DNA from: Cristatella mucedo | Lineage: Eukaryota > Bryozoa > Phylactolaemata > Cristatellidae | Direction: 5' to 3' | DNA: 64,000 bases | NCBI GenBank assembly: GCA_009760855.2 | Contig: WPIO01000061.1 | Location: 1,069,501-1,133,500 of the forward strand | Shown here: positions 1,911 through 57,980 of the stretch, piece after piece | Position numbering within the stretch: the stretch's first letter is position 1 | Layout: the number at the start of each line of letters is the position of its first letter | The notes under the pieces: generated by a model | The model's database searches: none | The model's input: the letters and a program-made list of their open reading frames with translations, nothing else | Told to the model about the DNA's origin: nothing | Translations under genes and position numbers: made by a program

Positions 1911-2634
1911 GACAACCACTGCTATTATTCTTTCTGCCATAAAAAATTAGATATTGAATGGGCTCGAGTTCAATGTGATTTCATCTAGCTATTATCAATT
2001 GTTTTGCAGCACACTGCCAAGCCAGTTAGTCGTTGCTAGAAACTCACGCAATCGCTACCATCGAGGGCGGACTGCTGCTTATAGCAGGCCATTTTGTCCA
2101 CGGTGTCTCAAGTATTCATATCTGATCAAACTAATTTTCCGATTCGCCGTCGCTCAAGTGGAGTTGCTTGACTTTGGCTTCGGCGTTGAGGTCCGTGGGC
2201 TCGGTACGGCATGCGGCCCAGATTGAGGTGTTTTAGCACTTTCGCTTTCTCTGAGAAGCTTAATAAAGAAAATACTCGCTGTGTATTGAAATGTTCCTGA
2301 CAGAATGTTAACACAGACGGCTGCTGAAAACATTATTCGGCTACATGTGACATATGAGGAAACTTGCCGACAAGCATTAGATTATCCGCAGCAGCGGGGC
2401 TGCACCCAGCTGAAATAAAATTGCCATATGTCCGTACATCTCCACGAAGCATTCAGTGATCCTGTGACTGATCTCCTTATATTAGGAATTCAAAGTGTAC
2501 TACTGGAAAGCCATGAGAAAGCAGCGAAACGTTTTGATCTCTCGAAGCTCAGTTCGATTAGCGAGTGATTGTGGCCAACAGATACTCCTAAGCTTCAGTA
2601 TTCCAAACTTCCTTGGCGAGTGGTTTTAAAAGAA

Positions 2635-3842
2635 AAATAATAATTATAATACGTTTAATTAAGCGCCCTAAGAGAACTCTTATCTTTTTCTAGGGACTTT
2701 AAATTTGCTGCAAAGGAAGCACGATTGAATGCTTAGTGGTAGCAAGCTCAAAACATAGCAACAGGGTTAGTGGTGACATGCACAGGGTCAGCATGCAAGC
2801 ATGGTTAGAGGTAGCATGCCTAGTGTCAGCAGGCACACGCACATACAGGTCGAATCACAGGTAACCACTAAATGCTTTGATAAATAGCTGCGTTTTTATT
2901 TTCTTTTTAAATGTGGTTAAGTCAGGAGATGTCGGAACGCAAGTAAGGAGCGAGTTTTAGGCTTTTCGAGCATACTAACTAAAGGCACGGTCTCCAAAGG
3001 ATTTGCGGTTTGTACGAGGTATGGGTAAACAGTTACACTCCGAAAAGCAGGTGGTACGATGCTTAGCCTGGTGGGGCAGTAGATCTGATAAGTAGTCTAT
3101 AGCCAAAGAATGAAGGGACGTAAAAGTGAGTGACAAAACCTTGAAGTCGATGCATTTCTTGACTGGTAGCCAGTGCAGGTCGGCGAGAAGTGGTGAGATG
3201 TGGCAACTGCGACGTTTGCGATAGACAAGCCTAACGGCAGAGTTTTGTACCAGCTGTAAGTGCCAGATTGCAGAGGCCAGTAGACCAGCAAGCAGTGAGT
3301 TACAAAAAGTCAAGGCGGGATTCATAAATGCACGGAGCAATTTAGATGTGATATCCCTGTCTAATAAAGCCCACGGTTTTGCTATGTTCTGTGGCTGAAA
3401 GTAGGCAGACAACTGTGGAGCTGATGTGATCCTCTAATGACAGGTCACTTTGGAGCATGACGCCTAAATTTCGTGCAGATTCAATTGGAAATATGCTGGA
3501 TTTCGAGAGATATGCTAGAGCCGATTTCGAGCGTCAGCCTTTCCAATTTCTGAATTACACTTGGTTTGTCCATAACTAGTGCGTTAGTTTTTATCCTTAT
3601 TCAATTTAATAAAATTTGCTGCCATCCATGCCCGGATGTCATCAATACATGCAGCAAGGGAATAGAGATAACTCGACGTGTTGGAGGGCTGGAAGGGATC
3701 AAAGCAAAGGTACAGGTGAGTGTCATCAACATAAGCGAAAGCCTAGATTGTGCTTGGCAATCACTTCGGCAAGAAGGAGAGTATAAACCGTGAAGGAACG
3801 GGATCAAGCAAGTAGCCCCGAGGTACCCCATATTTCAGAGGT
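2635..3842 (-). mobile_element. LINE-B copy, RT to 3' tail, broken
   Basis: Minus-strand LINE-B. The 3' tail with the GCGCCCTAAGAGAACTC hairpin lies at 2640-2720. The C-terminal region (LLADLHWLPVKKCIDFK) is in an open frame at 2975-3412. The RT region (GVP..., YADDT-like, MDGSKFY-type positions) continues to about 3842 with frameshifts. Truncated at the 5' end in the RT domain. Confidence 0.85.
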
Positions 3843-4795: not shown

Positions 4796-5876
4796 TGTTT
4801 GCTGAAGGGCTTCAGTGTGGTTCGAAGAGGCGACGGGGACTGAGGTCAGGGAGAAGGGCAGGTGGAGGTGCAGGGGGTAGGGGGAACCGGAGGGAGAAGG
4901 GTATAGGCAGGTGTAAGCAATGAGAAAGAGGTAGGGTAAGGAGGAGGGGGCGGGGAGGCGAAGGAGAAGGACCAGACAAAGGGAGAGTACTCTCAATAAT
5001 GGGACTGTAATGCATCGAGCTGTAACCGGTTTCCGCCGGGCGTGGACAGTCAACGGCGTCGCTGCTCATATTGGAGGACCCTGGAGGTGGTGCCGACTGC
5101 TGATCTATGCATCCATGCGTCTTCTTCTTCTGAGCCAGATGCCATATTGCTAAGACAACCGATGAGGACTCGTTCCTTTGTATTGTAAAACAATTCTCTG
5201 AGAGCTCAAGTATTGGTCAGCGGTACAGGGCACATGGTGATCAATCGATCGTGACGACAAGAGTGTCAAAGTAACTTTCTCTAGATCTGGCTCTAGGAAA
5301 CGGCGTGTGTATAGGCGTCTCTCAAAATTAGGTTTCTACAACCAGCTCGCAATTTGGTAGTCGAAATCTCAACTGTCATCGACATTAAAAATGGTATATA
5401 CCCTTAAAGTCTTTAAAAGGTTTCTCAGCTGATATTTTTATGCGAACTCTTTTGCAATAGCTTGGTTTAACTCATACTTTGGAATTGGTTTATTTAATAA
5501 TGCTGTGTGGACGACGAACTGCCCTGTTAAATGATTAGAGCCCATTCATGCTGAAGATTCGCCAAATGCTTTCACCGGACATGATACCCATGACACAATG
5601 ACTTATTGAGAAGATACCCAATGTCCTTTAGTTTTTCGCCTCCACGCGATACTCAATCGGGAGGTTTTTTCAGCATTAAGCTAAACAGCTTTTGAGCTTA
5701 CAGAGTCCGTTCATAGCGAAATACCAATTCACTAGTAGAATCCATATCCGAACATCACCCTGATCAACCGGAGAACCTAGCTACGGCAGCGTATCCGCGA
5801 TACAGGGCGTAAACACAAACAGGTCTCCGTCTATAAGGTCTGCGAACAGTGGCGGAGTCAAAAGTTTTATATAGGA
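4796..5876. other. No recognisable gene; purine-rich then unique
   Basis: 4830-4990 is G/A-rich (GGAGGGGGCGGGGAGG type). The remainder looks like non-coding unique sequence with short open frames only. Nothing recognised. Confidence 0.4.
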
Positions 5877-6061
5877 CAGCGGTTTTCAACTTTCCCAATG
5901 CCGCAATCCTTTAATACAATTCCTCATGTTGTTGCGACCCCAACCATAAAAATATTGTGTGCAAAATGTTGAAATGCGTGTTTTCCGATGGTCTTAAGCA
6001 ACCCCGTGAAAGGGTTGTTCGACCCCCAAAGAGGTCACGACGCACAGGTTGAGAATAGCTG
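5877..6061. mobile_element. Short hAT MITE resembling SPIN family
   Basis: A 185-bp element with terminal inverted repeats: CAGCGGTTTTCAAC at the left end, and TTGAGAATAGCTG (reverse complement CAGCTATTCTCAA) at the right. It is flanked by near-identical 8-bp target duplications, atatagga (5869-5876) and atctagga (6062-6069). Internal sequence GGTTGTTCGACCCCCAAAG, the GACC/TGCGACCCC blocks and CCGATGGTCTTAAGC match my memory of SPIN ('space invader') non-autonomous hAT elements. It has no coding capacity and would need a transposase in trans. Boundaries and target duplication are seen directly. The family name is from memory and needs a search. Confidence 0.7.
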
Positions 6062-6117
6062 ATCTAGGAGGTACAAGACCTGCAAAAGGCTTATGCTTTA
6101 TATAAAAAAATACTTGT

Positions 6118-6262
6118 TAATTTAACAGCCTCTTTTTTTTACAGCGGCAGAAGAGCCTTAAAGGCTCTTACCCCACCCCCGCTTGCAGCAGCAATAGAGG
6201 ATCGCCCACCGCAGGATTCGAACCCACGTCTCGGGACTGAGGTCGTGAAATGCAGCGGCAAG
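6118..6262 (-). mobile_element. SINE-2 (tRNA-like) copy
   Basis: On the minus strand it carries a box-B-like GGGTTCGAATCCTGCGGTGG, preceded by GACCTCAGTCCCGAGACGTG, and a 3' part AAGAGCCTTTAAGGCTCTTC. The same arrangement recurs at 25.7 and 31.3 kb. Confidence 0.7.
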
Positions 6263-8985: not shown

Positions 8986-9648
8986 TCAGTACCTCGGCCT
9001 TCGAGTTGCGGCACCATTCCGATACACTGTTCTCCGTGTCGTAGCTCGCCTCGCCGTTCGCGGTCGAGCCAGTGTCGTCCTTCGGCGCCGGACGGCTATC
9101 AGGGGGCTCAGAAGGAGTGCAGCTCGGCCTCTCCGACTACTCTCAGCCGCGCTGCTGCCCGAGCCGCTGCTGCAGTAGCTCGACGGAGGGCGGCCCGTCG
9201 GGCAAACGCAGCCGCCATCGCTCGAGGTGCACTCCGTTGAGCTGAGATCGAGCTGGTGCGATCGAGCGCAGCTCTCTAGCGCCGCTCCTCCTCCGTAGCC
9301 GCTGTCGCTCGACGATGCAGCTCTGCCCTCTGTCGAGCTCAGATTGGATACCTCGTTCGAGCCAGCGAAGGACGTCAGCGCTCTGCCATAGCCGTCCTCA
9401 CGGAACGAGCAGCAAGCTCGAGAACTGCTGTGCGAGCTCGACAAGGAACTGCCCTCTGCTGAGCTCAGATTTTCCTCTGTCGCTCTCAGAATGTCCCCTG
9501 TCGCGCTCAGACTGCCCTCTGTCACGCTCAGACTGTCATCCTTCGTGCTTAGACTGTCACCCGTCGTGTTCAGACTGTCCTCTGTCTTGCTCGGACTGTA
9601 CTCTAACTCGCCGTTGTGGTCTTTATTGCTAGACCAGCCGGACTCCAT
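8986..9648 (-). pseudogene. Ser-rich heptad protein, C-terminal part, copy 1
   Basis: Open frame of 220 aa. It starts in about seven 7-residue repeats of the type E/D-D/G-S-L-S-x-T (for example DDSLSVT, EGSLSAT), then Ser-rich sequence with SFREDGYGRAL and SSDSGYGGGAALE, and ends Arg-rich (VRRRRTTLARPRTARR). Its paralogue lies at 21536-22012. It is in a different frame from the N-terminal part at 9730-10302, so the copy is either frameshifted or joined by a small intron. No known domain recognised. Confidence 0.5.
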
Positions 9649-9729
9649 TGTTTTCTTGACGTAGTTCGACCAAACCCTCGATGGTGTTGAGATGTGACTG
9701 CCTGCAAAGCTGCCGTTGGTGTCGTGGCT

Positions 9730-10302
9730 TTATGAGCCGTGCGCATCGAAATATTCTTCATTACAGATCGGACCGTACTCGGTCGTAATGCTATGGTCGT
9801 TATTGCATGATAGCAAGTACCCCATTGCTTTGCTGGGGCATTGCAACCATGCAATGCGATCTACCGAACGGAGGATCTCTGAAGATCTGTAGCTGGTGTC
9901 GAGGCTTGAAAAGCTGAAGGCATCGGAACTGTCATCTGTCAAACTCGAACTGTAATCTGTCGCGCTGCTGAGGTCGTCGTGGCTCGACCAGCAGTGCTCT
10001 GGCACGTCGCTGATGTCCGAACGTCGTGTAACGCCTCCCATTGAGCTGCAGCTATCAGTGAAGCTGCTGGTAGCGGTAGAGCTTGAAGCACTGTACGTAG
10101 GGGTGGCACTGTCCTCCATCGATCTGGGGTGATAATCTGTCGAGCTGCTTCTGCGGTTGTCGTGGATTTTCCGGCTGTAACCTGTCGAGCGCTTGCCGGA
10201 GCTCGACCGAGCGCCGCACTGTGACGAGCTGCTCGCGCGTTGGCCTACGCTCTGCCGGTCTACTTTCTTATCGTTCATCCTTGTCTTTTTCCCGCTCGCC
10301 AT
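9730..10302 (-). CDS. Ser-rich protein N-terminal part, copy 1, unknown function
   Basis: 190-aa frame starting at ATG 10302. It begins with a basic, Ser-rich segment (MASGKKTRMNDKKVDRQSVG) and continues with a strongly Ser/Thr/Asp-rich, probably disordered chain containing SDISDVPEHCWSSHDDLSSAT. No signal peptide, membrane segment or domain is recognised. The paralogue at 23637 shares start, composition and motifs such as DISDVPEYCWSSYDD, which supports real coding ancestry. Differences between the copies are mostly substitutions plus repeat-number changes. Whether it is expressed is unknown. Next to the C-terminal half in 8986-9648. Confidence 0.5.
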   Translation of the reverse strand: MASGKKTRMNDKKVDRQSVGQRASSSSQCGARSSSGKRSTGYSRKIHDNRRSSSTDYHPRSMEDSATPTYSASSSTATSSFTDSCSSMGGVTRRSDISDVPEHCWSSHDDLSSATDYSSSLTDDSSDAFSFSSLDTSYRSSEILRSVDRIAWLQCPSKAMGYLLSCNNDHSITTEYGPICNEEYFDAHGS

Positions 10303-10545
10303 ACAGCGATTGCTGAGGAATTGAAGCGTTCAAAAGCCACAGCATACATTCATGCAGACGTATATTTAAATTCCAAAGCTTTATAAATGCCTCTAGGACT
10401 TTCTTAGTATGATGACACTTTGGTGGAAATTCGGCGTCCACCTGACATGTCGGATTTCGGCGATGTGCGTGAACTACTTTCTCCGTTTTTTTCCTTCCCT
10501 TCACAGTTCAAAATCAAGGTTCAACCTTGAAATTCTAATACGGTG

Positions 10546-11954
10546 GCACGACATTAAGCTAAAGCTCGGGTCTCTATCCGTATCTACAGCAGGTAATTTC
10601 ACTCCTCTAGGCGGCAAACGCTTTCAATTTTGTTGCATTTGGACTGTAGAGAAACAAGCAAAAAATCTAGCACCCGCGATGACTTGAAGCTATTACTAAT
10701 GATGATTATGGCTCGTCGCTTGCCATTGATCGGCGAGGCTCGCTCTGTTCCACTTCCGGCCCAAGCTGCACATCCGTCGCATCCGTACGTTTCTCCCTTT
10801 TTTATGGTATTTGATATGTACCTTGTCGAGCGCTAGTCGCCAACTGAAAGCGCCAAGCTCTGAGTGCAGTTATATGCAAGCTCGCTGATTAGACATGCCC
10901 TACGGGCATACGATTACTTAGCTGTGCAACGGGTGGAGACACTCGAGAGCAATTGATCTCTTTCATATCTTGCCAAAATCGCCAACAGGTTTCACACGGT
11001 TTTGATACAGCTTGCTATGGCACACTATTGTAGATTGTTGTTGTGTATTGCTTGACTATTAGGTTATTTTCGACGAGCTAGGGTAGTTGGTCTTCCTTTA
11101 GGAATACCAAGTGCCTGACTGTTCTTATTGGCCAGGTGGCATCGTTGCATCTCGTGGCCATCATCATGAATTGGTTCGCATTCGTTCATCCTTTTATGTA
11201 CTCGCACAGGCCGCATACGAAGCAAGAGGCATTCATTCCTACCCGGCACTATTAATACAGCAATGAAGCAGCTTAACGCCATGATAGTTTAGAAACGGAA
11301 ACGTTGGCATACTGAATCATTTAGGTCATGGTAGTGCTTGAAAATATTGTGTCGCCATCATTACAGAAATGGAGAACGGGTATAATATTATCGACTGCTT
11401 ATACGGTAAAAAAACAGATCCCGAGAGATCGTTATATGATCCCTGTACGCTAGGCTGGTGGTGTGCAGATATGACTCCATGTAGCTTGAGAATATAGCGC
11501 TCTATGCTAAGAATGTGGATTCGTGAGGAATATGTACGTTCTTGATTCTAGTCGTGAGAGCCGATAGTCACTATAAGAACGAGTGCATTAACGTGGCTCC
11601 TATGGCGTTAGCCGTGTTTAGAGGCGCTAGCTAAGCCAGTGGCCGAATCGCACGTCTGCAAGAACGAACAGCACCTATGAACGCACATAGTGTGTGGGAG
11701 CGGACTGCATAGTGGATCCAGCAGAATGATTGAATTGCTGCACAACGCCTCGCAGCAAGAAGCCGGCCCCGCCCCTATCAAAGAAACTGCCAGCTAAGCC
11801 AGCTAGACTCTTATATCAAAGTTTTGAAACTGGCAAGGAATTACCTGCTAGATTTTAGAGCATATCACTCCACACCGGCATGCATTGCTTCGGGTGCATA
11901 ACAACCTCCCCCGGAATGCAGTCTATGTGCTTGATTTTACGGCAACGTTTGGCA
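10546..11954. other. No recognised gene
   Basis: Only short open frames. No LINE, SINE or tRNA signature that I recognise. Confidence 0.35.
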
Positions 11955-12055
11955 CTAGTCACGCTTCCTTTGCAGCAAATGTAAAGTGCCTAGAAAGAGA
12001 CTGAATTTTCTGAGTGCGCTATACAAATGTATTGTAATAATAATTATTAATATTT
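11955..12055 (+). mobile_element. LINE-B 3' tail fragment
   Basis: TTTGCAGCAAATGTAAAGTG and the AGAAAGAGACTGAATTTTCT block, then a TGCGCTATACAAATG end and ATT-rich simple sequence. A SINE-1 follows directly. Confidence 0.65.
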
Positions 12056-12076
12056 TGATCCGTTCGGTGCCTAAGT

Positions 12077-12210
12077 GCTGGTTTGGTCCAGCGGTTATGG
12101 TGCTCGCCCCGACCAAGGTCTTGCCTAGGTCGTGGGCCCAAACCTCGTGGCATATATGAAGCACTTTAATATAGTTTAAGTTCTCTTAGGGTGCAACACA
12201 AATGAATTAT
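12077..12210 (+). mobile_element. SINE-1 copy
   Basis: tRNA-like head GCTGGTTTGGTCCAGCGGTT (box A region), a degraded box B (GTCGTGGGCCCAAACCTCGT), then a tail with AAGTTCTCTTAGGGTGCAAC. Confidence 0.75.
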
Positions 12211-13340
12211 GTTTTCTAAGTGACTAGTTGGCATTTTTAGGATTTTTTCAGATCTATGAAATCCTGATAAAGTCAGAAATATCTGTTAAAGCCTCCAAAA
12301 AATCAGTTACTAGTGGATTTTATGGATGGATGTGGCTTTCGTAAAAGAATGACGCGAAATTAATAAAAGGATAAACAGATGATGGCTGAGAAAAATGGTT
12401 ACTGCCTAGTTAAAGCAAAACCATATACTTTTCTTCCACTAGTTTCTACCTACAAATAAATAACGGTAAACCACCACTTTGCTTTGAAAGGCCTGATTGA
12501 GTGTCCTCTGACGCAGCCAGACGTGAGCCAGATAACCTACTAAAAGGAAAGCTTGCAGCTCCTCATGAATGCTGCAAAGCCATCACTTTAGGAGCAATCA
12601 GCAAGTATTGAAACAGTTTAAAGTTCCCCTGATTGTAAGATTACAAAAAGTAGCTTTTAGCCCCACGAAACTGCGGGTACACGATACTAAATTTGAAAAT
12701 CAAAGGCCAATTATGTAGGCTGGGCAAAGGCTCTCAGCAGCCTTTGGGGTATCGACTCTCCTTGGAAGCTGGAGGAGCAACGTCGCTACAACTGACTGCA
12801 GCGACCAGGCGCTTCATTTTTGTCCGTTCCACTGAGAGCAAATGTCCACACAACTTAAATATGTAACTAATAGTGATATGATCAAAAGCCTGCTGACCAC
12901 TATTTTGTTATGCAAGGAAGAATTGAAGGTTCAGTTTCAACTATGAGAGTGCATATCGTAAGTCCTTATGCAAATTGGTAAACTATCTACTCTGTTATTT
13001 TTGACATAGAGCTGATCATGCATATGCACAATCATAGCGGTAGCATTATTATTATAAACAAGAGCACAATTAACGCGTATTGTCAGCGATTCGTGTTTGC
13101 GGACTCACAATACAAGTATCAAGTTTGATCGTCCGCTAAAACCTGCCGCTTTCTGCCTGACCATAATGAAATAATACAGAACTGTGTGAATTATTACAAC
13201 TACAATTGATTCAGGGAGAACTAATTTTGTTATGGTCCCGCTCATTAAATGAGGTCCTGCAAAAACTGAGTATGGCTTGATGGACCACCGCGTTGAGGTT
13301 TCATAGTACTCAAATTTGTTTATCATTTGTTGCCCGGAGT
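12211..13340. other. No recognised gene
   Basis: AT-rich unique-looking sequence with short frames only. Confidence 0.35.
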
Positions 13341-13455: not shown

Positions 13456-13784
13456 CTTTGGTTCTGTATATTCTTAAGCTTTTGACTCAGCTGATCGCTA
13501 CTGAACTTGACATGCTCAATTGCAATTACTGAACGTGTAAGTTAAAATTCAAATTAAAGTCCTGTCACTGAGGGTACTTTTTTCATCTATTGTCGTAGCA
13601 CGTTCAAAGGCAGGAACTCACGTCCAAGTCGAGTGCTTTAACCACAAGCAGCCTAGGTCACGTGACTGACGTGACTAACCCAGTGGTTAGTACTACTCGG
13701 GAGCGAAAGTGAAAATGCGCTTTCACGGCCCTTTGCAAAAAGTGCCAGGAATGACAATTTCTTTGTTAGTCGTGGTTCGGGAGT

Positions 13785-14735
13785 GTAATGTATCTCCGTC
13801 TGTAGTTCCACAAAGCCATAAAGACTATAGAGTTTTGTATAGCCCTCTCACAGCCTAAGCGGCTTTCGGCAGCTTTCGGTAGCCAAAAGAATTCGTCTCA
13901 CGAAACAAAGAGAAAGTGGGAAGCATAGCAGAGTCAGGAGAACAGTTGTGGTAGTGAGTAGCATGGAATCTGCAGCTCAGGACCGCTGAAAAGGATGAGC
14001 CATAGTCGGCAGCAGAAGAGTAGTTGTCGTTTCGTAAGAATTGTGGAAGCGAGTTCCACAGTCTAGGACCTGCAGAGCTAATGCTTCTGTCGCCAACGGT
14101 CTAAGCAGAGAATTGGAACAGCTAATTTATTGTCTACACAGGACCTGAGGGCTCGAACAGGCTGAAACTGGTGCAGAAGTTCAGCTAGGTATGAAGGAGC
14201 CAAGCCGTGGCGGGCCTTGTGGGTCAGCGTAAGAACTTTGCTCTGTATCCTTTAATCAACCGGCATCCATCCTAGCTCTTTTAGCAAAGGAGACACGTAC
14301 TAAAACTTCTGGGACTTGAAGACCAGCCTTGCAGCCATATTCATAGTCTGCTGCAGTGGCCTAGTTGCTTTCTTTGGTAGCCCAATCAAAAGGGAATTAC
14401 AATAATCAAGCCAAGACAGAACTAAGGAGCTAGTTTAATTTTTGCGAGCCACTGCGAAGGACAGCTCCAAACTGGGATAGGGATCTGACGTGATGGCTAG
14501 CTGTAGAAGCAGTCTTCTGAATGAAGCTTTTAAGATTGAAGCAGCTGTCGAAAACGACACCTAAATTTTGAGCACGTGGTGATGGTCGCACGACAGCATC
14601 ACCTATTAGAAGAGCAAAGCCTTTTAATCCAGCCACACGTTTAGGGTGTCCTATGAGCAGCAGTTCGCTTTTATCGTCATTTAGTTTCAAGAAAATTTCT
14701 GACATCCAGGATCGAATGTCGGCCCATATGAAATC
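13785..14735 (-). mobile_element. LINE-A copy, 3' part, broken
   Basis: Minus-strand LINE-A. The 3' end (reverse complement of ACTACAGACGGAGATACATT) is at 13785, followed by the C-terminal LGWMPV-type region and the NLGVVFDSCFNLKSFIQKTA block (frame 14430-14705). It stops abruptly at about 14735 in the RT domain. It carries many substitutions relative to the copy at 49.5-51.7 kb. Confidence 0.85.
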
Positions 14736-20610: not shown

Positions 20611-20781
20611 TGTAGCGGTTCCGCTCCTGTCCTATTGTTTCCACATCGGTAGATGAATTGGTGCAACTTCTGTCCCTCATAAAAATACAACTCCTTTGTA
20701 CTGATTGTACTTTGACTGATTAACCACGATAAACAAGGGACAACTGTATGTTAAGTATATGCATACATACATATATATGTA

Positions 20782-20916
20782 ATTCATTTGCGGAGCGTCC
20801 TAAGAGAACTGAATTTATATTCAGGCGCTTTACAAAAGCCACGGGACTCTAGCCCCCCCCCGACCTTAGCCAGACCTTGATCGAGGCGAGCACCTTAATC
20901 ACTGGGCCTAACCAGC
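20782..20916 (-). mobile_element. SINE-1 copy
   Basis: Orthologous to the SINE-1 at 8308-8453 within the duplication. It has the box-B region GGGGCTAGAGTCCCGTGGC and the tail GTTCTCTTAGGACGCTCC. A second head fragment follows at about 20954-20996. Confidence 0.7.
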
Positions 20917-21535
20917 ACTGCAATGTGCTCGTCCATGTGAAACATTTAATTTTACCTCGGCCTAAGCGAGCATCTTTACATCTGGGCCAAGCCAGAGTGG
21001 CATTTGCCCTGCCTCGAGGTTAAAGTACGAACGGCAACTGATACATCTCTGTAAGGACATCTCTGTGAGGACTACCGTGCATTACGAGCGCTGGGTTCCA
21101 CACTAAAACTCCTTTGTTCAGAGGCCACTATATGCGTTGTATCAATAGTATCTCTTCAGTAAACTCGCTATATACAAAACTTTCATTTTTCACATAGGAC
21201 ATGTAATTTTCGATGCTTACAATATCTCTAAACGAAATTCAAGTGCTATTAAGGTGCAAGCATGAGAAATTTAAGGAGCAATCATTATTATCAATTTCAT
21301 TTTATGTCTGATGGATAACACTGAATAAATATTTGCTTATCTAGTTGAATTTCCCGAGCCTTCAAGGATCTGCCAAAGCCACAAGTTTGTACTTGAAATG
21401 GGAGGCCAAAAAAGGTTATCCGCATTCGATCATTGTTTCTCACCACTTGACAAAGTCAGCTAACAAAGGAAGCGTTGTAACAACGCAGCTGTCGTGGCGT
21501 TAGTTGTCGATGTCGATGATTAGCATATAGTTGAG

Positions 21536-22012
21536 CTAACGCACCTTTCCGTGCCTCGGCCTTCGAGTTGCCGAACAATTCTGATACACTGTTCTCCATT
21601 TCGTAGCTCGCCTAGCCATTCGCGGTCGAGCCAGTGTCGTCTTTCGGCGCCGGACGGCTACCAGGGGGCTCAGATGGAGTGCAGCTCGGCCTCTCCGACT
21701 ACTCTCAGCCGCGCTGCTGCCCGAGCCGCTGCCGCAGTAGCTCGACGGAGGGCGGCCCGTCGGGCAAACGCAGCTGCCGTCGCTCGAGGTGCTGCTGCAC
21801 TCCATTGAGCTGAGATCGATCTGGTGCGAGAGAGCGCCGCTCTTTGGCGCCGCCCTGCCGCCGTAGCCGCTGTCGCTCGATGATGTAGCTCTGCCCTCTG
21901 TCGAGCTCAGATCGGATACCTCGTTCGAGCCAGCGAAGGACTTCAGCGCTCTGCCATAGCCGTCCTCACGGAACGAGCAGCAAGCTCGAGAACTGCTGTC
22001 TGAGCTCGACAA
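21536..22012 (-). pseudogene. Ser-rich heptad protein, C-terminal part, copy 2
   Basis: 158-aa frame closely paralogous to 8986-9648: it shares SSSRACCSFREDGYGRAL, SSDSGYGGRAAPKS, CPTGRPPSSYCGSGSGSSAA and the Arg-rich end. It is separated from the N-terminal frame by the expanded 21-bp array, within which the reading frame is broken by indels. Confidence 0.5.
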
Positions 22013-22024
22013 GGAGCTGCTCGT

Positions 22025-23112
22025 TATCGTGCTCGTATTGCCCTCTGTCGTGCTCAGACTGTTCTCTGTCGTGCTCGTATTGCCCTCTGTCGTGCTCGTA
22101 TTGCCCTCTGTCGTGCTCAGACTGTTCTCTGTCGTGCTCAGGCTGTTCTCTGTCGTGCTCAGGCTGACCTCTGTCGTGCTCAGGCTGACCTCTGTCGTGC
22201 TCAGGCTGACCTCTGTCGCGCCCAGGCTGACCCCTGTCGCGCCCAGGCTGACCCCTGTCGCGCCCAGGCTGACCCCTGTCGCGCCCAGGCTGACCCCTGT
22301 CGCGCCCAGGCTGACCCCTGTCGCGCCCAGCCTGACCCCTGTCGCGTCGCGCCCAGCCTGACCCCTGTCGCGCCCAGGCTGACCCCTGTCGCGCCCAGCC
22401 TGACCCCTGTCGCGCCCAGCCTGACCCCTGTCGCGCCCAGCCTGACCCCTGTCGCGCCCAGCCTGACCCCTGTCGCGCCCAGCCTGACCCCTGTCGCGCC
22501 CAGCCTGACCCCTGTCGCGCCCAGGCTGTCGTCTGTCGCGCCCAGGCTGTCGTCTGTCGCGCCCAGGCTGTCGTCTGTCGCGCCCAGGCTGTCGTCTGTC
22601 GCGCCCAGGCTGTCGTCTGTCGCGCCCAGGCTGTCGTCTGTCGCGCCCAGGGTCGTCTGTCGCGCTCAGGCTGTCGTCTGTCGCGCCCAGGCTGTCGTCT
22701 GTCGCGCCCAGGCTGTCGTCTGTGTCGCCCAGGCTGTCGTCTGTCGCGCCCAGGCTGTCGTCTGTCGCGCCCAGGCGGTCGTCTGTCGCGCGCCCAGGCT
22801 GTCGTCTGTCGCGCCCAGGCTGTCGTCTGTCGCGCCCAGGCTGTCGTCTGTCGCGCCCAGGCTGTCGTCTGTCGCGCCCAGGCTGTCGTCTGTCGCGCCC
22901 AGGCTGTCGTCTGTCGCGCCCAGGCTGTCGTCTGTCGCGCCCAGGCTGTCGTCTGTCGCGCCCAGGCTGTCGTCTGTCGCGCCCAGGCTGTCGTCTGTCG
23001 CGCCCAGGCTGTCCTCTGTCGCGCCCAGGCTGTACTCTGTCGCGCCCAGGCTGTACTCTGTCGCGCCCAGGCTGTACTCTGTCGCGCTCAGGCTGTACTC
23101 TGTCGCGCTGCT
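22025..23112. repeat. 21-bp tandem array, about 50 units
   Basis: On the plus strand the units are CTGTCGTCTGTCGCGCCCAGG and close variants, grouped in blocks: a CTCTGTCGTGCTCAG type at 22030-22210, CCCCTGTCGCGCCCAG at 22210-22520, CTGTCGTCTGTCGCGCCCAG at 22520-23010 and CTGTACTCTGTCGCGCCCAG at 23010-23112. 21 bp is 7 codons, read on the minus strand as SLGATDD / SLGATEY. Odd-length units (for example near 22335, 22645 and 22788) shift the frame. Copy 1 of the duplication has only about 8 units. Confidence 0.95.
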
Positions 23113-23637
23113 GTGTTCATCATGGGTCGACCAGCAGTAATCCGGCATGTTTTTGTTGCAGTTCAAGCAAAGGTTGCATAATGTCGAGATGCGTCTATCT
23201 GCCAAGCTGCTGTCGCTGGTGTCATGAACTGGTGAATTTCGCTCTTCGAAACTGTCTTCAGCCGAGCTCAAATGAGACTCTGTGGCGCTGCTGCAGTCGT
23301 CATAGCTCGACCAGCAGTACTCTGGCACGTCGCTGATGTCCGAACCTATAATGCCTCCCTTTGAGCTGTAGCTATCTGTGAAGCTGCTGGTAGCGGTAGA
23401 GCTTGAAGCACTGAAGGCAGCGGATTTGCTGACTCCAGCGGCAGTGTCCTCCGTCGAGCTGGGGTGATAATCTGTCGCGCTGCTGCTGCTGCGGTTGTCG
23501 CGGCTTTTCCGGCTGCAACCTGTCGAGCGCTTACCGGAGCTCGACTGAGTGCCGAGTCGTGACGAGCTCCCGCGTTGACCTACGCTCTGCCAGTCTGCTT
23601 TCTTATTGTTCATCCTCGTCCTGTTCCTGCTCGCCAT
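22666..23637 (-). CDS. Ser-rich protein N-terminal part with heptad repeats, copy 2
   Basis: 323-aa frame from ATG 23637. The N-terminus MASRNRTRMNNKKADWQSVG parallels copy 1. A Ser-rich region with SDISDVPEYCWSSYDDCSSA follows, then a duplicated-looking NMPDYCWSTHDEHSSATEYS, then many tandem heptads (TEYSLGA, then TDDSLGA). The last ~40 residues are in a shifted frame (ARQTTAW repeats) after a 2-bp change near 22790, so the biological product is uncertain or the array is mis-assembled. The repeats are acidic and hydroxyl-rich and suggest a disordered, possibly phosphorylated or extracellular-matrix-like chain. No function is assigned. Confidence 0.5.
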   Translation of the reverse strand: MASRNRTRMNNKKADWQSVGQRGSSSRLGTQSSSGKRSTGCSRKSRDNRSSSSATDYHPSSTEDTAAGVSKSAAFSASSSTATSSFTDSYSSKGGIIGSDISDVPEYCWSSYDDCSSATESHLSSAEDSFEERNSPVHDTSDSSLADRRISTLCNLCLNCNKNMPDYCWSTHDEHSSATEYSLSATEYSLGATEYSLGATEYSLGATEDSLGATDDSLGATDDSLGATDDSLGATDDSLGATDDSLGATDDSLGATDDSLGATDDSLGATDDSLGATDDSLGARQTTAWARQTTAWARQTTAWATQTTAWARQTTAWARQTTA

Positions 23638-23711
23638 GCGGCGATTTCTGAAGAATTGAAGCGTTCAAAAGGCACAGCATACATTTATGCAGACATACAT
23701 TTGTAATGTAT

Positions 23712-28838: not shown

Positions 28839-29541
28839 ACTGAGAAACTGAATGCTTGCCTTGCCGATATTCGATCCTGGATGTCGGAAAACTTCCTGAA
28901 ATTAAATGACGATAAAACCGAACTGCTGCTCATAGGAAACCCTAAGCGTGTGGCTGGATTAAAAGGCTTTGCTGTTCTAATAGGTGATGCTATTGTGCGA
29001 CCTTCACCACGTGCTCGTAATCTAGGTGTCGTGTTCGACAGCTGCCTCAATTTCAAAAGCTTCATTCAGAAGACTGCCTCTACAGCTAGCCATCACATCC
29101 GATCCCTATCGTAGATTAGAAGCTGTCTCCTACAGTGGCTTGTAAAAAATTTAACTAGCTCTTTAGTTCTGTCTGGGCTTGATTATTGTAATTCCCTTTT
29201 GGCTGGGCTGCCAAAGAAAGCTATTATGCCACTACAGCGGACTATGAATATGGCTGCAAGGCTGGTCTTCAAGTCCCAGCGGTTTGAGCACGTGTCACCT
29301 CTGCTGAAAGAGCTAGGATGGTTGCCGGTTGAGCAAAGGATACAGAGCAAAGTTCTTACGCTGACCCACAAGGCCCGCCACGGCCTGGCTCCTTCGTACC
29401 TAGCTGAACAACTGCATCAGTTTCAGCCTGTTCGCGCCCTCAGGTCCTGTGTGGAGAATAAATTAGCTGTCCCATTCCTCCACTTAAAGACAGTTGGCGA
29501 CAGAAGCTTTAGCTCTGCAGGTCCTAGACTGTGGAACTCTT
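28839..29541 (+). mobile_element. LINE-A copy, left part (interrupted by LINE-B)
   Basis: Plus-strand LINE-A beginning with AACTGAATGCTTGCCTTGCC, then NFLKLNDDKTELLLIGNPKR, FDSCLNFKSFIQKTA and LGWLPVEQRIQSK, up to PRLWNS at about 29541, where LINE-B sequence starts. The rest of the element resumes at 30922. Confidence 0.9.
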
Positions 29542-30889
29542 TCGGCAGCTTTTGACACCATCGATCACAAAGTTCTTCTAGAGCGCCTCTCATCTCGCCT
29601 GGGCATCACTGGCACTGCTCTGCAGTGGTTCAGGTCCTATCTCAGTGGGAGACTCCAGAGTATTGACGTAATTGGACAAAAATCATCTGAAGTACCTCTG
29701 AAATATGGAGTACCTCAGGGCTCCGTGCTAGGTTCGGTTCTTTTCACGGTTTATACTCTCACTGTTGCTGATGTGATTGCCAAGCACAATCTAGGCTTTC
29801 ACTTCTATGCGGATGACACTCAGTTGTACCTTTGCTTTGATCCCTCCCAGCCTTCGAGCACCTCAAATTCTCTCAACTCACTTGCTGCATGCATTGATGA
29901 CATCCGCACATGGATGGCAGCAAATTTTCTAAAACTAAACGATGACAAAACTAACTTACTAGTTATGGGCAAACCAAGTGTGATTCAGAAATTGGAAAGG
30001 CTGACGCTCAAAATTGGCTCTGCCAGCATATCTCCTGTCGAATCAGCTTGAAATCTAGGTGTCATATTCCAAAGCGACCTCTCGTTAGACGACCATATCA
30101 GCTCCACGGTCAAATCTGCCTATTTTCAGCTTCATAACATTGCTAAAATTCGGGCTTGTTTAGATAAGGATACCGCGTCTAAGTTGGTTCATGCATTCGT
30201 GACATCTCGTCTCGACTTCTGCAACTCACTGCTTACTGGCCTCCCAACATGTGCGATCAGGCGATTGCAGCTGGTGCAAAACTCTGCAGCTAGGCTTGTC
30301 TGTCGTGAGCGTCGCAGTTGCCACATTACTCCACTTCTCGCCGACCTGCACTGGTTACCAGTCAAGCAACGGATTGACTTCAAGGTTTTGTCACTCACTT
30401 TTATGTCCCTTCATTCTATGGCTCCAGCCTATCTCTCCGACATTCTTCCCATCAGGCCAAGCATCGTACCACCCGCTTTTCGGAATCCAACAGTCTGGAA
30501 ATACCTCGTACAAACCTCAAATCCTTTGGAGACCGTGCATTTAGTTCATATGCTCCCAAAGCCTGGAACTCCCTCCCGACCTGCGTCAGAACATCCCCTG
30601 ACCTGACCGCATTTAAAAGGAACCTAAAATGCACATATTTAGGACAGCATTTAGTGGGCCCCTGTAATTCGTCCTTCACGTGCTTATGCGTGCTGACACT
30701 GTGCATGCTGCCACTAACCACATTTGCATGCTGACCCTGTGCATGTCACCCATAACCATGCTATCCATGTTATTCATTTTGTTTGTTTTTCAAGCATGAT
30801 TTTACTTACCATTTAATTGCATTTCCCTTTGCAGCAAATGTAAATCGCCTAGAAAGAGATTAAGTTCTCTGAGGGCGCTTTATCAAGTA

Positions 30890-36530: not shown

Positions 36531-36715
36531 AATGTCAGGTCATCGTAGGAAGCGACCGTAGTTAAGAAGCGAGTTTCCAAAGTTCGGTAGATACTAGCCG
36601 AATGCCCGATCACCAAAAAATATTAAACTAAAGAACGAGGAACGACAAGTCTCCACGAAGCCGATGAGCAACACTCGACACTGGTTCGAGGTAATTCTGG
36701 GAGAGCGCGGAGGTC

Positions 36716-37600
36716 GAATACCCTAAGCGTATGGCTGGATTAAAAGGCTTTGCTGTTCTAATAGGTGATGCTATTGTGCGACCTTCACCACGTGCTCGTA
36801 ATCTAGGTGTCGTGTTCGACAGCTGCCTCAATTTCAAAAGCTTCATTCAGAAGACTGCCTCTACAGCTAGCCATCACATCAGATCCCTATCCAAGATTAG
36901 AAGCTGTCTCCCACAGTGGCTTGTAAAAAATTTAACTAGCTCTTTAGTTCTGTCTGGGCTTGATTATTGTAATTCCCTTTTGGCTGGGCTACCAAAGAAA
37001 GCTATTATGCCACTACAGCGGACTATGAATATGGCTGCAAGGCTGGTCTTCAAGTCCCAGCGGTTTGAGCACGTGTCTCCTTTGCTGAAAGAGCTAGGAT
37101 GGTTGCCGGTTGAGCAAAGGATACAGAGCAAAGTTCTTACGCTGATCCACAAGGCCTGCCACGGCTTGGCTCCTTCGTACCTAGCTGAACTGCTGCATCA
37201 GTTTCAGCCTGTTCGCCCCCTCAGGTCCTGTGTGGAGAATAAATTAGCTGTCCCATTCCTCCGCTTAAAGACAGTTGGCGACAGAAGCATTAGCTCTGCA
37301 GGTCCTAGACTGTGGAACTAGCTTCCACAATTCTTACGCAACGACATCTACTCTCCGACTGCCGACTATGGCACATCTTTTTCAGCGGTCCTGAACTGCT
37401 ACTTCTATGCTACTCACTACCTCAACTGCTCTCCTAACTCTGCTATGCTTCCCACTTTCTCTTTGTTGCGTGAGACGAACTCTGTTGGCTACCGAATGCG
37501 TACCGAAAGCCGCTTAGGCTGTGAGTGCGCTATACAAAACTCTCCTGCGTAACACCCACATGGTCTTTTTGACTTTGTGGAGTTACTGACGGAGATACAT
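36716..37600 (+). mobile_element. LINE-A copy, 3' part, little decayed
   Basis: 5'-truncated at ACCCTAAGCGTATGGCTGGA. A 196-aa frame (36731-37321) is nearly identical to the copies at 28.9 kb and 49.6-51.1 kb, ending in PRLWN plus an early stop. The 3' UTR runs to TGACGGAGATACATAGG. It lies antisense to YDJC in intron 1. Confidence 0.9.
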
Positions 37601-49600: not shown

Positions 49601-51085
49601 TCACGCAACAAAGAGAAAGCGGGAAACATAGCAGAGCCAGGAGAGCAGTTGAGGTAGTGAGTAGCATAGAAGTAGCAGTTCAGGACAGCAGAAAAAGATG
49701 TGCCATAGTCGGCAGTTGGAGTAGTTGTCGTTGCATAAGAATTGTGGAAGCGAGTTCCACAGTCTAGGACCTGCAGAGCTAAAGCTTCTGTCGCCAACTG
49801 TCTTTAAGCGGAGGAATGGGACAGCTAATTTATTCTCCAGACAGGACCTGAGGGCGCGAACAGGCTGAAACTGATGCAGCAGTTCAGCTAGGTACGAAGG
49901 AGCCAGGCCGTGGCGGGCCTTGTGGGTCAGCGTAAGAACTTTGCTCTGTATCCTTTGCTCAACCGGCAACCATCCTATCTCTTTCAGCAAAGGTGACACG
50001 TGCTCAAACCGCTGGGACTTGAAGACCAGCCTTGCAGCCATATTCATAGTCTGCTGTAGTGGCATAATAGCTTTCTTTGGCAGCCCAGCCAAAAGGGAAT
50101 TAGAATAATCAGGCCGAGACAGAACTAAAGAGCTAGTTAAATTTTTTACAAGCCACTGTGGGAGACAGCTTCTAATCTTTGATAGGGATCGGATGTGATG
50201 GCTAGCTGTAGAGGCAGTCTTCTGAATGATGCTTTTGAAATTGAGGCAGCTGTCGAACACGACACCTAGATTACGAGCATGTGGTGAAGGTCGCACAATA
50301 GCATCACCTATTAGAACAGCAAAGCCTTTTAATCCAGCTACACGCTTAGGGTGTCCTATGAGCAGCAGTTTGGTTTTATCGTAATTTAATTTCAGGAAGT
50401 TTTCCGACATCCAGGATCGAATATCGGCAAGGCAAGCATTCAGTTTCTCAGTTGCTGCAGCAGATTCCGACGGTTTAAATGACAAATACAACTGAGTATC
50501 GTCAGCATAGAAGTGATATCCTATTCCATGGGCCTTAATCACTTTTCCCAGAGGTTGCGTATAAATAGAGAACAGCAAACGACCAAGTAGAGACCCTTGA
50601 GGGACTCCACAGGTGACCATTCTCTTCTGTGAAACCTGACCCCCACACGACACGGATTGAACACGATCAGACAAGTATGATTTAAACCACGCCAGTGCTT
50701 CGTCTGCCAGACCGATCGTTGTTCTCAATCGTTCAAGCAGAACTTCGTGATCAATGGTGTCGAAGGCAGCAGACAGATCTAGCAGAGCTAGGGCAGTGAC
50801 ATTCCCGTCGTCGTTGCCACGTAGAATGTCATTGTAAACACGGAGGAGAGAAGTTTCAGTAGAGTGCTGCCTCTTGAACCCTGATTGAAATGTTTCTGAC
50901 ATTCCATTATTTTCAATATGTTCAACTAGCTGCTTAGCAACATTTTTTTCAAGAATCTTTGATAAGAACGGAAGAAGGGAAACTGGACGATAGTTTGCTA
51001 GGACCTCTGTGTCTAATCCAGGCTTTTTAAGAATAGGTTTAACGATTGCCGATTTGAAGGACTTGGGGACGACCCCTTTTCCCAA
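49601..51085 (-). CDS. LINE-A reverse transcriptase and C-terminal domain
   Basis: 494-aa frame of a non-LTR reverse transcriptase, which would copy element RNA into DNA at the nicked target. Motifs in order are KSAIVKPILKKPGLD (finger region), NYRPVSLLPFLSKILEK, ALLDLSAAFDTIDHEVLL (motif A, catalytic Asp), GVPQGSLLGRLLFSIY (motif B), FYADDTQLYLSF (motif C, YADD), LKLNYDKTKLLLIGHPKR and the C-terminal LGWLPVEQRIQSK-type block. The last ~40 residues diverge from other copies because of a frameshift near 49700. The linker upstream is out of frame or separated by a stop at about 51186. No endonuclease is present, so it cannot move by itself. Confidence 0.9.
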   Translation of the reverse strand: MGKGVVPKSFKSAIVKPILKKPGLDTEVLANYRPVSLLPFLSKILEKNVAKQLVEHIENNGMSETFQSGFKRQHSTETSLLRVYNDILRGNDDGNVTALALLDLSAAFDTIDHEVLLERLRTTIGLADEALAWFKSYLSDRVQSVSCGGQVSQKRMVTCGVPQGSLLGRLLFSIYTQPLGKVIKAHGIGYHFYADDTQLYLSFKPSESAAATEKLNACLADIRSWMSENFLKLNYDKTKLLLIGHPKRVAGLKGFAVLIGDAIVRPSPHARNLGVVFDSCLNFKSIIQKTASTASHHIRSLSKIRSCLPQWLVKNLTSSLVLSRPDYSNSLLAGLPKKAIMPLQQTMNMAARLVFKSQRFEHVSPLLKEIGWLPVEQRIQSKVLTLTHKARHGLAPSYLAELLHQFQPVRALRSCLENKLAVPFLRLKTVGDRSFSSAGPRLWNSLPQFLCNDNYSNCRLWHIFFCCPELLLLCYSLPQLLSWLCYVSRFLFVA

Positions 51086-51185
51086 AGAAGCATTACAAAT
51101 CTTGGTTATGGCAGGGCTAAGTTGGTCTGCAAGTGAAGACCACAGAGATAAAGGTATAGGGTCTTCAGGAGACGAGCTCTTTTTG

Positions 51186-51689
51186 CTAGACCTTATTAGG
51201 GCTTAATGGAGGCATGAATGTGCACAATTTTTCAGTAAAGAAGGCTGAAAACGTTTCGGCTGAGCCCTTAATATCTGGGGAGTCAGACCTCACAGCATTG
51301 GCCAGTAAATGGTTTACTGTCTTATAAATCTGTTTAGTGTCCGACTGGCAGGAATTCAGCTTTCTAATGAAAAAAGAAGCCCCCTTTTTAAGCTTTCGGG
51401 TGTAAACTCGAAGGCAGTCTTTAAAATTGACCAGGTCTGCCTCAGAACCCGATTTCTTGAAACGACGTTCCAGACTGCGCTTAACATGGCACATCTTAAG
51501 GAGTTTTTTTGTAAATTGAAAGGAATCTCGACGACTTTGAACACGGATAGAGCAAACGGGAGCATGCTTGTCAAGAGCACTCCTGAGTGTCATGTTCATC
51601 GCATCAGTGAGGGTATCGAGGCTGCCGGTCGAGTCTGAATGCAGATCAAGAAGGCCTGCATCACAAACAGATTTCAAAAACTTGTCCAT
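51186..51689 (-). pseudogene. LINE-A linker ORF fragment
   Basis: 167-aa frame: MDKFLKSVCDAGLLDLHSDS, then HAPVCSIRVQSRRDSFQFTK and NFKDCLRVYTRKLKKGASFF. This is the region between the endonuclease and RT, typical of L2/CR1-type LINEs. It ends at a stop before the RT frame. Confidence 0.8.
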
Positions 51690-52269
51690 GTCAATGCAAT
51701 ATGTTGCTACCGGTTTACAACCATGTTGAATGTGGTTAAAATGACCATTTTCTTTTATCTGGAAGTCTTCAGAAGTTCCAATTTTATTTCTAACATGTTT
51801 GTCTTATGAAAGATACCCTATACAAATATACGATTGCGGGACTTGACATTCTGCCTGCAGGTGGCAGACATCCGTGCTCTGCAACTCCCAATCTTTGGAA
51901 TTCACCATCACAATTCCCATGACATTCCTTTCTCCTGCTGCATACACTGGCACGTCTGTATCGGCCGTCTTATGCTGCTAGTTCTAGGCTCGACTGTCCT
52001 GTTAACCCAGCTATACTTCTCACTTTCTCTTTGTGGTAGAGATGAAGTGTGTTGGCTACCATATCTTAGACTGAGCTTTGTGATATATTAACAAAGCTCA
52101 AAGCCTATTATTAGCAAAAATATATTGCTGCATGCTAAATCAAGATAAGCAAGCGCACCATATGTCAGCAGCAGTAAACAGCAAGTACCTATATGGTAGG
52201 CGTATATAAACGGATATGAACCTAAACTCAGACAAATCGAGCACATATCAACAACCATCATACGGTTAC

Positions 52270-54625: not shown

Positions 54626-54902
54626 GCGTAAGGAGCACATTCAAGCTCAGCACGTGCCAGGGACCTGGCGCTACTGGTGCTGCTGTGGCAGCTCCAGCAG
54701 CTGCCCTTCCTACTGCAGCTGCTCCCTCAGCAGCTCTTCTCAGCTGCTCCACTTTGCTACGGGGCGTTCCCAGTCACGCACGCGACCCCGACCGCAGTCC
54801 AAGCAGCAGCTTCATATCACCACGACTGCGGCAGTGGCCGAATGAAAGACCAGCAGCAGATCGCCGGTGACCACTGACTATGCCTTCGCGATCACTACTC
54901 AC

Positions 54903-55673
54903 ATGCTCCGGAGGTCGACCTAGACCTAGCAGGAGAATGTGCCGCTCGAGTTCGGGGGGCCACCACTCGTAGTCGACATTCCTGCTGCAGCTGCTCTGCA
55001 TGAGGCTCTCCTCGCTATAGGCGATGCACGAGCCGTCGACAGCCAAGAGGGGCGCGCACGTCTCCATGTCGCCAACGGCGACTCGTGCGTCCGCGGTAAG
55101 GTAAACGGCTTCGGGCGTGACGGCGCAGTGGCAAAGGTTGGCTGCTTGGCGCAAGTGGACGGCGGCGCAGAGCATCTCGTACGCTAGGCGCAGGTAGGTG
55201 CCGGCCTCGATGCCATAGGGCGGCGTCGGCCAGATGGCTCGGTGGCAGCGCATGAACGAGCCGAGCGTGTGCACATACGAGCCAGGCATCACGTAGAACA
55301 TGGCGGCGACAGCGTGGCCCGCCGACTGCCACCGTGCAGCCAACCCCTGTGTGGTTCGCATCGATAGCCGAGCATCGATGGCAGCATGGGTGCGTAGGCC
55401 TCGCCTTGCACCGCCTCCGTGAGGAGCACCACCACCGCCACCGCTTCCCTGCTGCTCCGCAGACGGCACGGCATCCGTGGGCACACCGATGCAAGTAAAG
55501 TAAGAGCCGTCGCCGAAGTAGCTGGCAAGGATTCGCGCCACGTGCCGGTGAGCAGGCACCGGCGGGAGCTGGTCATCAAGAGCAGAGTCTGAGCTCATCA
55601 GGGCCACTCTGGCGGCAGGGTTGAGCAGACGAAGATTCAGGGGTAGCTGATCACAGTCGGCATTCAGCACCAC
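54903..55673 (-). CDS. TEX14: TEX14-like exon: dead kinase core
   Basis: 771 nt, phase 0 to 0; acceptor CGCTCCAG, donor CAT|GTGAGT. It encodes beta3 (QLPLNLRLLNPAARVALMSS, Arg where VAIK has Lys), then PPVPAHRHVARILASYFGDG (beta4-like, 'HPHLLQL' in TEX14). A Gly-rich insert follows (SGGGGGAPHGGG), then a hinge-like AAMFYVMPGSYVHTLGSFMR. The catalytic loop HCAVTPEAVYL replaces HRDxKxxN, VAVGDMETC replaces DFG, and an APE-like YEWWPPEL is retained. All three phosphotransfer residues are lost, so this is a pseudokinase by sequence. Confidence 0.8.

Positions 55674-57980
<2,307 letters not shown>

Follow-up and report, generated by a model that had tools for sequence, protein, structure and literature searches.

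SPIN is a textbook example of a transposon that has moved between only distantly related animals. Its full-length form is near 3 kb. The Buster group of hAT transposons is marked by a TA at positions 4-5 of the target-site duplication.

Published accounts, represented here by extracts of their text, place transfers of SPIN into murine rodents, galago, opossum, tenrec and vesper bats at 15-46 My ago (PMC5857283), and report SPIN from the bug Rhodnius (PMC11614815) and a SPIN-like hAT with about 1,000 copies from the snail Biomphalaria glabrata, in whose assembly intact transposases were not detected (PMC5440852). In the literature that was searched, which included few subscription journals, Rhodnius and, for the SPIN-like element, Biomphalaria were the only non-tetrapod hosts, and others may be in print. 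Among other mobile families, Buster1 and Buster2 occur in a planarian, insects and a bat, and the extract concerned gives Buster elements about 106 bp of shared termini (PMC4298943). OposCharlie1 (OC1), likewise a Class II element, was transferred repeatedly among vertebrates and into Rhodnius according to the extract of PMC3621081; it is a separate family.

The 185-bp element described here lies in a stretch of 64,000 nucleotides, called the window throughout. This copy is decayed and most likely represents a short MITE that arose by internal deletion from a SPIN-type Buster hAT. Its placement in SPIN proper is suggested by short printed mouse sequences and a general resemblance to SPIN rather than by an alignment to the SPIN consensus. 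Like SPIN and SPIN_NA of tetrapods and Rhodnius, it has hAT-type 8-bp duplications and belongs to short non-autonomous forms (SPIN_NA is named in the extract of PMC11614815); it differs in its host, which has a lophotrochozoan-like mitochondrial gene order, and in its 185-bp form with a short centre.

Structure of the element

The window, with a GC content of 48%, comes from C570, one of the 688 contigs of an assembly of 572,011,866 bases. The inverted ends of the element, CAGCGGTTTTCAACTT at 5877 and CAGCTATTCTCAACCT read inward from 6061, match at 12 of 16 positions, and the flanking 8-mers, ATATAGGA (5869-5876) and ATCTAGGA (6062-6069), at seven of eight, which bears out the initial annotation of a 185-bp element with inverted ends and a 7/8 target duplication. 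When the window was scanned at a single spacing, 185 bp, for ends matching at 12/16 or better together with a duplication of at least 7/8, the interval 5877-6061 was the sole pass. The MITE contains no gene. Its parts are listed in Table 1.

Table 1. Parts of the 185-bp element and its flanking duplications, in positions of the window.
Feature	Position	Strand	Observation
Left 8-bp target-site duplication ATATAGGA	5869..5876		7/8 to 6062-6069; family consensus near nTCTAGAn
Whole non-autonomous hAT element (MITE), most likely SPIN-type, 185 bp	5877..6061	+	40/40 scored genome places, self included, at least 85%; consensus of 28 copies
5' terminal inverted repeat	5877..5892	+	Pairs with the 3' end at 12/16 in this copy and at 15/16 in the consensus
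5' arm, common to longer relatives	5877..5956	+	86% over 81 columns to L088; complete in L088, L100, L101 and L102, partial in L098
Short centre	5957..5972	+	Longer relatives hold about 150-950 bp instead; in L088, L098, L100 and L101 the 5' arm stops near consensus 80 and the 3' arm begins near 96-102
3' arm	5973..6061	+	Holds the consensus 108-131 stretch matched by printed mouse primers
3' terminal inverted repeat	6046..6061	+	End-match test
Right 8-bp target-site duplication ATCTAGGA	6062..6069		7/8 to 5869-5876

The window copy by itself, with ends at just 12/16 and a duplication at 7/8, might be taken for an inverted repeat that arose by chance and never moved. This reading is refuted by the copies throughout the genome, their duplications and the empty site of one of them, all described below, and its probability is negligible.

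Copy number and divergence

A genome search with the element returned 1,932 first-look candidates; all 40 that were scored, the window copy included, were at least 85% identical (89% for the best of the others), and they lay on 28 contigs. A 31-bp pattern taken from the 3' arm was found, at up to two mismatches, at 700 places in the genome, and its reversed control at none. These figures supply the copy count that the initial annotation had proposed, and the MITE family comprises at least several hundred copies. Among about 100 matches listed of the 700, there seem to be at least two variants directly before the 3' arm, with either ATGC or ATTC preceding GTGTTTTCC.

An alignment of 28 copies was built from eight loci and 20 of the other 32 scored copies, the window copy included and 12 left out; these are among the copies closest to that of the window, and the sample leans toward its kin. 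The resulting consensus is 186 bp long and its ends match at 15 of 16 positions. Duplications matching at 7/8 or better flank 19 of the 28 fetched copies, the remaining nine scoring 0-5 of 8, and when left and right duplications were re-paired at random (1000 trials), 1.1 copies on average, and never more than six, reached that level. The initial annotation had held the boundaries to be real, and these data support a hAT MITE with true boundaries.

The 28 copies diverge from the consensus by 5.6% on average (K2P; 4.6% outside CpG), and the window copy, at 10.6%, is the most divergent of them. A set of 35 near-complete entries, in which at least two copies were entered twice (L004/L090 and L025/L097), averages 93.5% identity to the consensus.

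Evidence of movement and flanking repeats

Empty sites were sought for 26 entries, by searching their flanks against the fetched loci only, and one was found for a single entry, L015. When the flanks of this copy are joined and one duplication is kept, they are 79% identical to window 30574-30274 and 2959-3233, and the alignment runs ungapped through the junction. The copy thus interrupts, cleanly, a LINE-like repeat that the window holds in its empty form, and ORFs near 29488-30606 of the window resemble, by eye, parts of a LINE. For the window copy, a genome-wide search with the joined flanks gave no empty site among the matches listed, which were its own two flanks and, for the right flank, another repeat.

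The right flank of the element (window 6100-6220) is a different repeat: the joined-flank query gave 2,461 first-look candidates, and 40 of the 42 matches listed cover that part. A tRNA B-box-like stretch seen there by eye suggests a minus-strand SINE. LINE-like fragments of the window lie at 49601-51803 (minus), 29115-30606 (plus) and 36695-37321 (plus), the first identified by an RVT_1 match (E 4e-32) in 49601-51202 and the other two by eye. Two further ORF regions, 8986-10329 and 21536-23664 (minus), read as related and serine-rich, and in the latter short, nearly identical repeats (GATDDSL-like) form a long array that is open in several frames; the pieces compared with Pfam gave nothing above the cut-off. 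A divergent ORF at 54774-55823 matched nothing in Pfam and nothing convincingly in the PDB.

The host genome

The genome holds 62 matches to the nuclear-receptor zinc finger and an animal mitochondrial contig, by which the host is an animal. On these two grounds an earlier reading of the divergent ORF at 54774-55823, as pointing to an apicomplexan with a large genome (compare PMC9141347), was given up. The mitochondrial contig, C688, has 21,008 bases, with 45% GC over the first 17.5 kb. Under the invertebrate code its COX1 is an open frame, under the vertebrate code a broken one, and by our own reading AGR falls at serine and ATA at methionine positions. Pfam confirmed nad1, cob, nad4L, nad4, nad5, cox3, cox2 and nad3, nad2 was named by elimination from a match to the shared NADH-dehydrogenase domain, and nad6, which had no Pfam match, was named by position. 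The block nad1-nad6-cob-nad4L-nad4-nad5 lies on one strand, and cox2 and nad2 are on the strand opposite to the other recognized genes. We take the order of this block to be that of many molluscs and other lophotrochozoans, unlike that of arthropods or vertebrates, and the gene order as a whole is presumably not that of a pulmonate snail.

The same contig (L065-L067) carries a repeated ORF pair (11632-12460 and 13747-14575), which recurs inverted near 2537-3365 and in part near 20667-20942. COX1 fragments also occur outside it (C166:4375626, C83:2826-3735, C549:2641741 and C299:634220) and are possible nuclear insertions of mitochondrial DNA.

As SPIN is best known from tetrapods, its appearance here might be ascribed to vertebrate DNA contaminating the assembly. 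The spread of the 40 scored copies over 28 contigs, the copy that interrupts a repeat present several times in the window, and a mitochondrial contig that is unreadable with the vertebrate code and readable with the invertebrate one all argue against such an origin, which we regard as extremely improbable.

Longer relatives and a decayed transposase

Ten loci were fetched by the 3' pattern, nine of which are the short form and one of which (L088) has both arms in an element of 482 bp. The 5'-arm pattern followed by bases unlike those of the short form occurs at 18 places in the genome (control, none). Eight loci fetched from these include four short forms with an altered centre (L097, L099, L103 and L104), two longer forms with both arms (L100, 1123 bp; L101, 418 bp), a longer form that lacks the first 49 bases (L098) and a 5' arm only (L102). 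L088, L098, L100, L101 and L102 have in common an interior block that directly adjoins the 5' arm, and the longer relatives range from 418 to 1123 bp. Since the longer forms share the arms as well as an interior block, the short form is most simply explained as a longer element that lost its interior. In L088, L098, L101 and L102 this interior block also appears to be that of the tetrapod SPIN_NA elements.

The two halves of L100 were found again, 1.85-2.16 kb further apart and with the interior unmatched, at C111:23757039-23760134, C676:10562137-10564905 and C133:3519442-3522357. In these three full-size relatives the first half is 82% and the second half 77-86% identical to L100, and their span, extrapolated by adding the arms with the ends themselves unread, is about 2.95-3.3 kb. 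L100 contains an open stretch of 80 residues that resembles, by eye, the end of a hAT transposase; this C-terminal peptide had no match in Pfam, and a protein search with it hit five places (L100 itself, C658, C111, C676 and C133) at 64-70% identity. A stop is present in three of the five pieces and absent in two, and the surrounding open frames have 75-210 residues. The C676 copy, read over 301 bases as 99 residues with the stop given as X, matches the hAT dimerization region PF05699 at 22.6 bits, against a curated cut-off of 21.4, and this piece of a full-size relative is predicted to encode a decayed form of that region. An intact full-size copy in the genome is unlikely, as far as the stops in three of the five pieces and the 301 bases read from the C676 interior can tell.

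The partner of the MITE was reached via the longer copies instead of a transposase family search. A search of the genome with PF05699 gave at least 138 matches among 150 scored of 766 candidates. Thirty of these loci (L029-L058) were rejected as the autonomous partner; they represent one young hAT, and the MITE arms were found in none of the 30 at E<=1. Seventeen other loci with hAT domains (L070-L086) were rejected as well, with the arms in none of the 17, L080 being the young family again. The fetched copies of the young hAT are mostly at least 99% alike to L040 and L050 over about 2.2 kb, several have open frames of up to 635-642 residues, the L040 transposase matches the Hermes transposase in the PDB, and the family looks recently active. 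In a second hAT family (L076-L078) the copies are about 94% alike and the open frames have 482-563 residues; that of L076 scores above the cut-off for PF05699 and below it for DUF4371.

Probable affinity with SPIN

Membership in the hAT superfamily is indicated by the 8-bp duplication, found at 7/8 or better in 19 of the 28 copies, and by PF05699 in the C676 relative. Of the 28 left duplications, 26 have T as their fourth base and 24 have A as their fifth, in line with the TA by which the Buster group is recognized.

The text of the literature was searched with 29 words, some overlapping, taken from the element or its longer copies. Every match to these words, as far as the matched extracts extend, was a mouse sequence or a primer from work on mouse, with two sources printing the same primers; as mouse primers are abundant in the literature, the matched set is a biased sample. 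A Kcnq1ot1 primer matches consensus 108-127 at 19 of 20 bases, including five of the six outside the searched word. Two Ate1 primers match at 18 of 20 bases each, at 112-131 and 168-187; R1 agrees at four of the five bases outside the searched word, R2 (18/20) contains no searched word, and the two, from one mouse locus, have the order and orientation of the element. Less telling are an Il1b primer (17/20 at consensus 124-143), which with one of four bases outside the searched word adds nothing beyond that word, and a Drc1 primer, whose match to the longer copies (16-17/20) includes 15 bases of the searched word. For four of these 20-mers, none of 2,000 shuffles per primer reached the observed score, a control that overstates the case because three of the four (all but Ate1 R2) had been found via searched words of 14-16 bases. 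A further mouse match, in the extract of PMC8376875, covers by eye the terminal repeat only, and six words from the 5' arm had no match in the literature text. Murine rodents are among the SPIN hosts (PMC5857283, extract), and the internal stretch matched by mouse primers is accordingly a point of likeness to SPIN.

The initial annotation had proposed that a SPIN identity should be given up if the likeness were confined to the terminal 16 bp or so. It extends further, since mouse primers match at 19/20 and 18/20 within consensus 108-131. Searched for SPIN sequence, collections of other DNA yielded 18-mers that match by chance, in viral_contigs (L068) and in genome_contigs (L069), neither being flanked by any further part of the element. 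Three further patterns had no match in viral_contigs, and plasmids and phages gave none either.

The element might instead belong to a different Buster-type hAT, inherited vertically or acquired apart from SPIN, with arms that are SPIN-like since Buster transposases recognize similar ends. Buster1 and Buster2 are similar to it in kind: they too are Buster-type hAT MITEs, their arms are conserved and horizontal transfers are reported for them. The ends given for Buster1 and Buster2 in the extract, CAGGGCTTCTTAAAC and CAGGGGTGGCCAACCT, differ from CAGTGGTTCTCAACC of the element (PMC4298943), the mouse primers match the interior of the 3' arm in addition to an end, and copies about 5-7% from their consensus imply that the burst was not ancient. 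Because the termini of Buster elements are alike over about 106 bp, we retain this explanation, as an unlikely one, beside the preferred assignment to SPIN.

History of the family in its host

The following history would account for a SPIN-type MITE of this structure. The arms, of 80 and about 90 bp, are those of a longer element; transposase made by full-size copies would have bound them and excised the MITE, which would then have been reinserted at sites resembling nTCTAGAn with duplication of 8 bp. Full-size copies may have moved the MITE, and the family multiplied to at least several hundred copies before it presumably fell silent. It appears to have been silent for long and to be so now, because its copies differ from the consensus by 5-7% on average and the frames in which the transposase pieces lie have only 75-210 residues. 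Assuming 2-5e-9 substitutions per site per year, the age of the family would be roughly 10-30 My.

The family probably entered the host lineage by horizontal transfer. It is also tempting to speculate that this lineage was a reservoir, in which full-size and miniature SPIN multiplied and from or through which they spread, rather than the dead-end recipient of a tetrapod element; we consider such a role quite improbable.

The SPIN-like hAT of Biomphalaria offers a close parallel, as it resides in an invertebrate of what is likely the same broad lineage, at a copy number of the same order according to the extract of PMC5440852; the present case differs in the 48% GC of the window and presumably in mitochondrial gene order. 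The initial annotation had suggested that the host lineage would join the list of SPIN recipients if the identity proved high. That suggestion gains from the likeness beyond the ends, but one more invertebrate host comes as less of a surprise than was implied, Biomphalaria and Rhodnius being already in print (PMC5440852 and PMC11614815, extracts). Because a SPIN-like element is published for the former and SPIN for the latter, the lineage is probably a new host of a known kind, for a family already known to move horizontally. An additional invertebrate in which full-size relatives persist offers sequences from which a transposase tree can be built and the family dated, and these bear on the direction in which SPIN travelled and on the animals that carried it.
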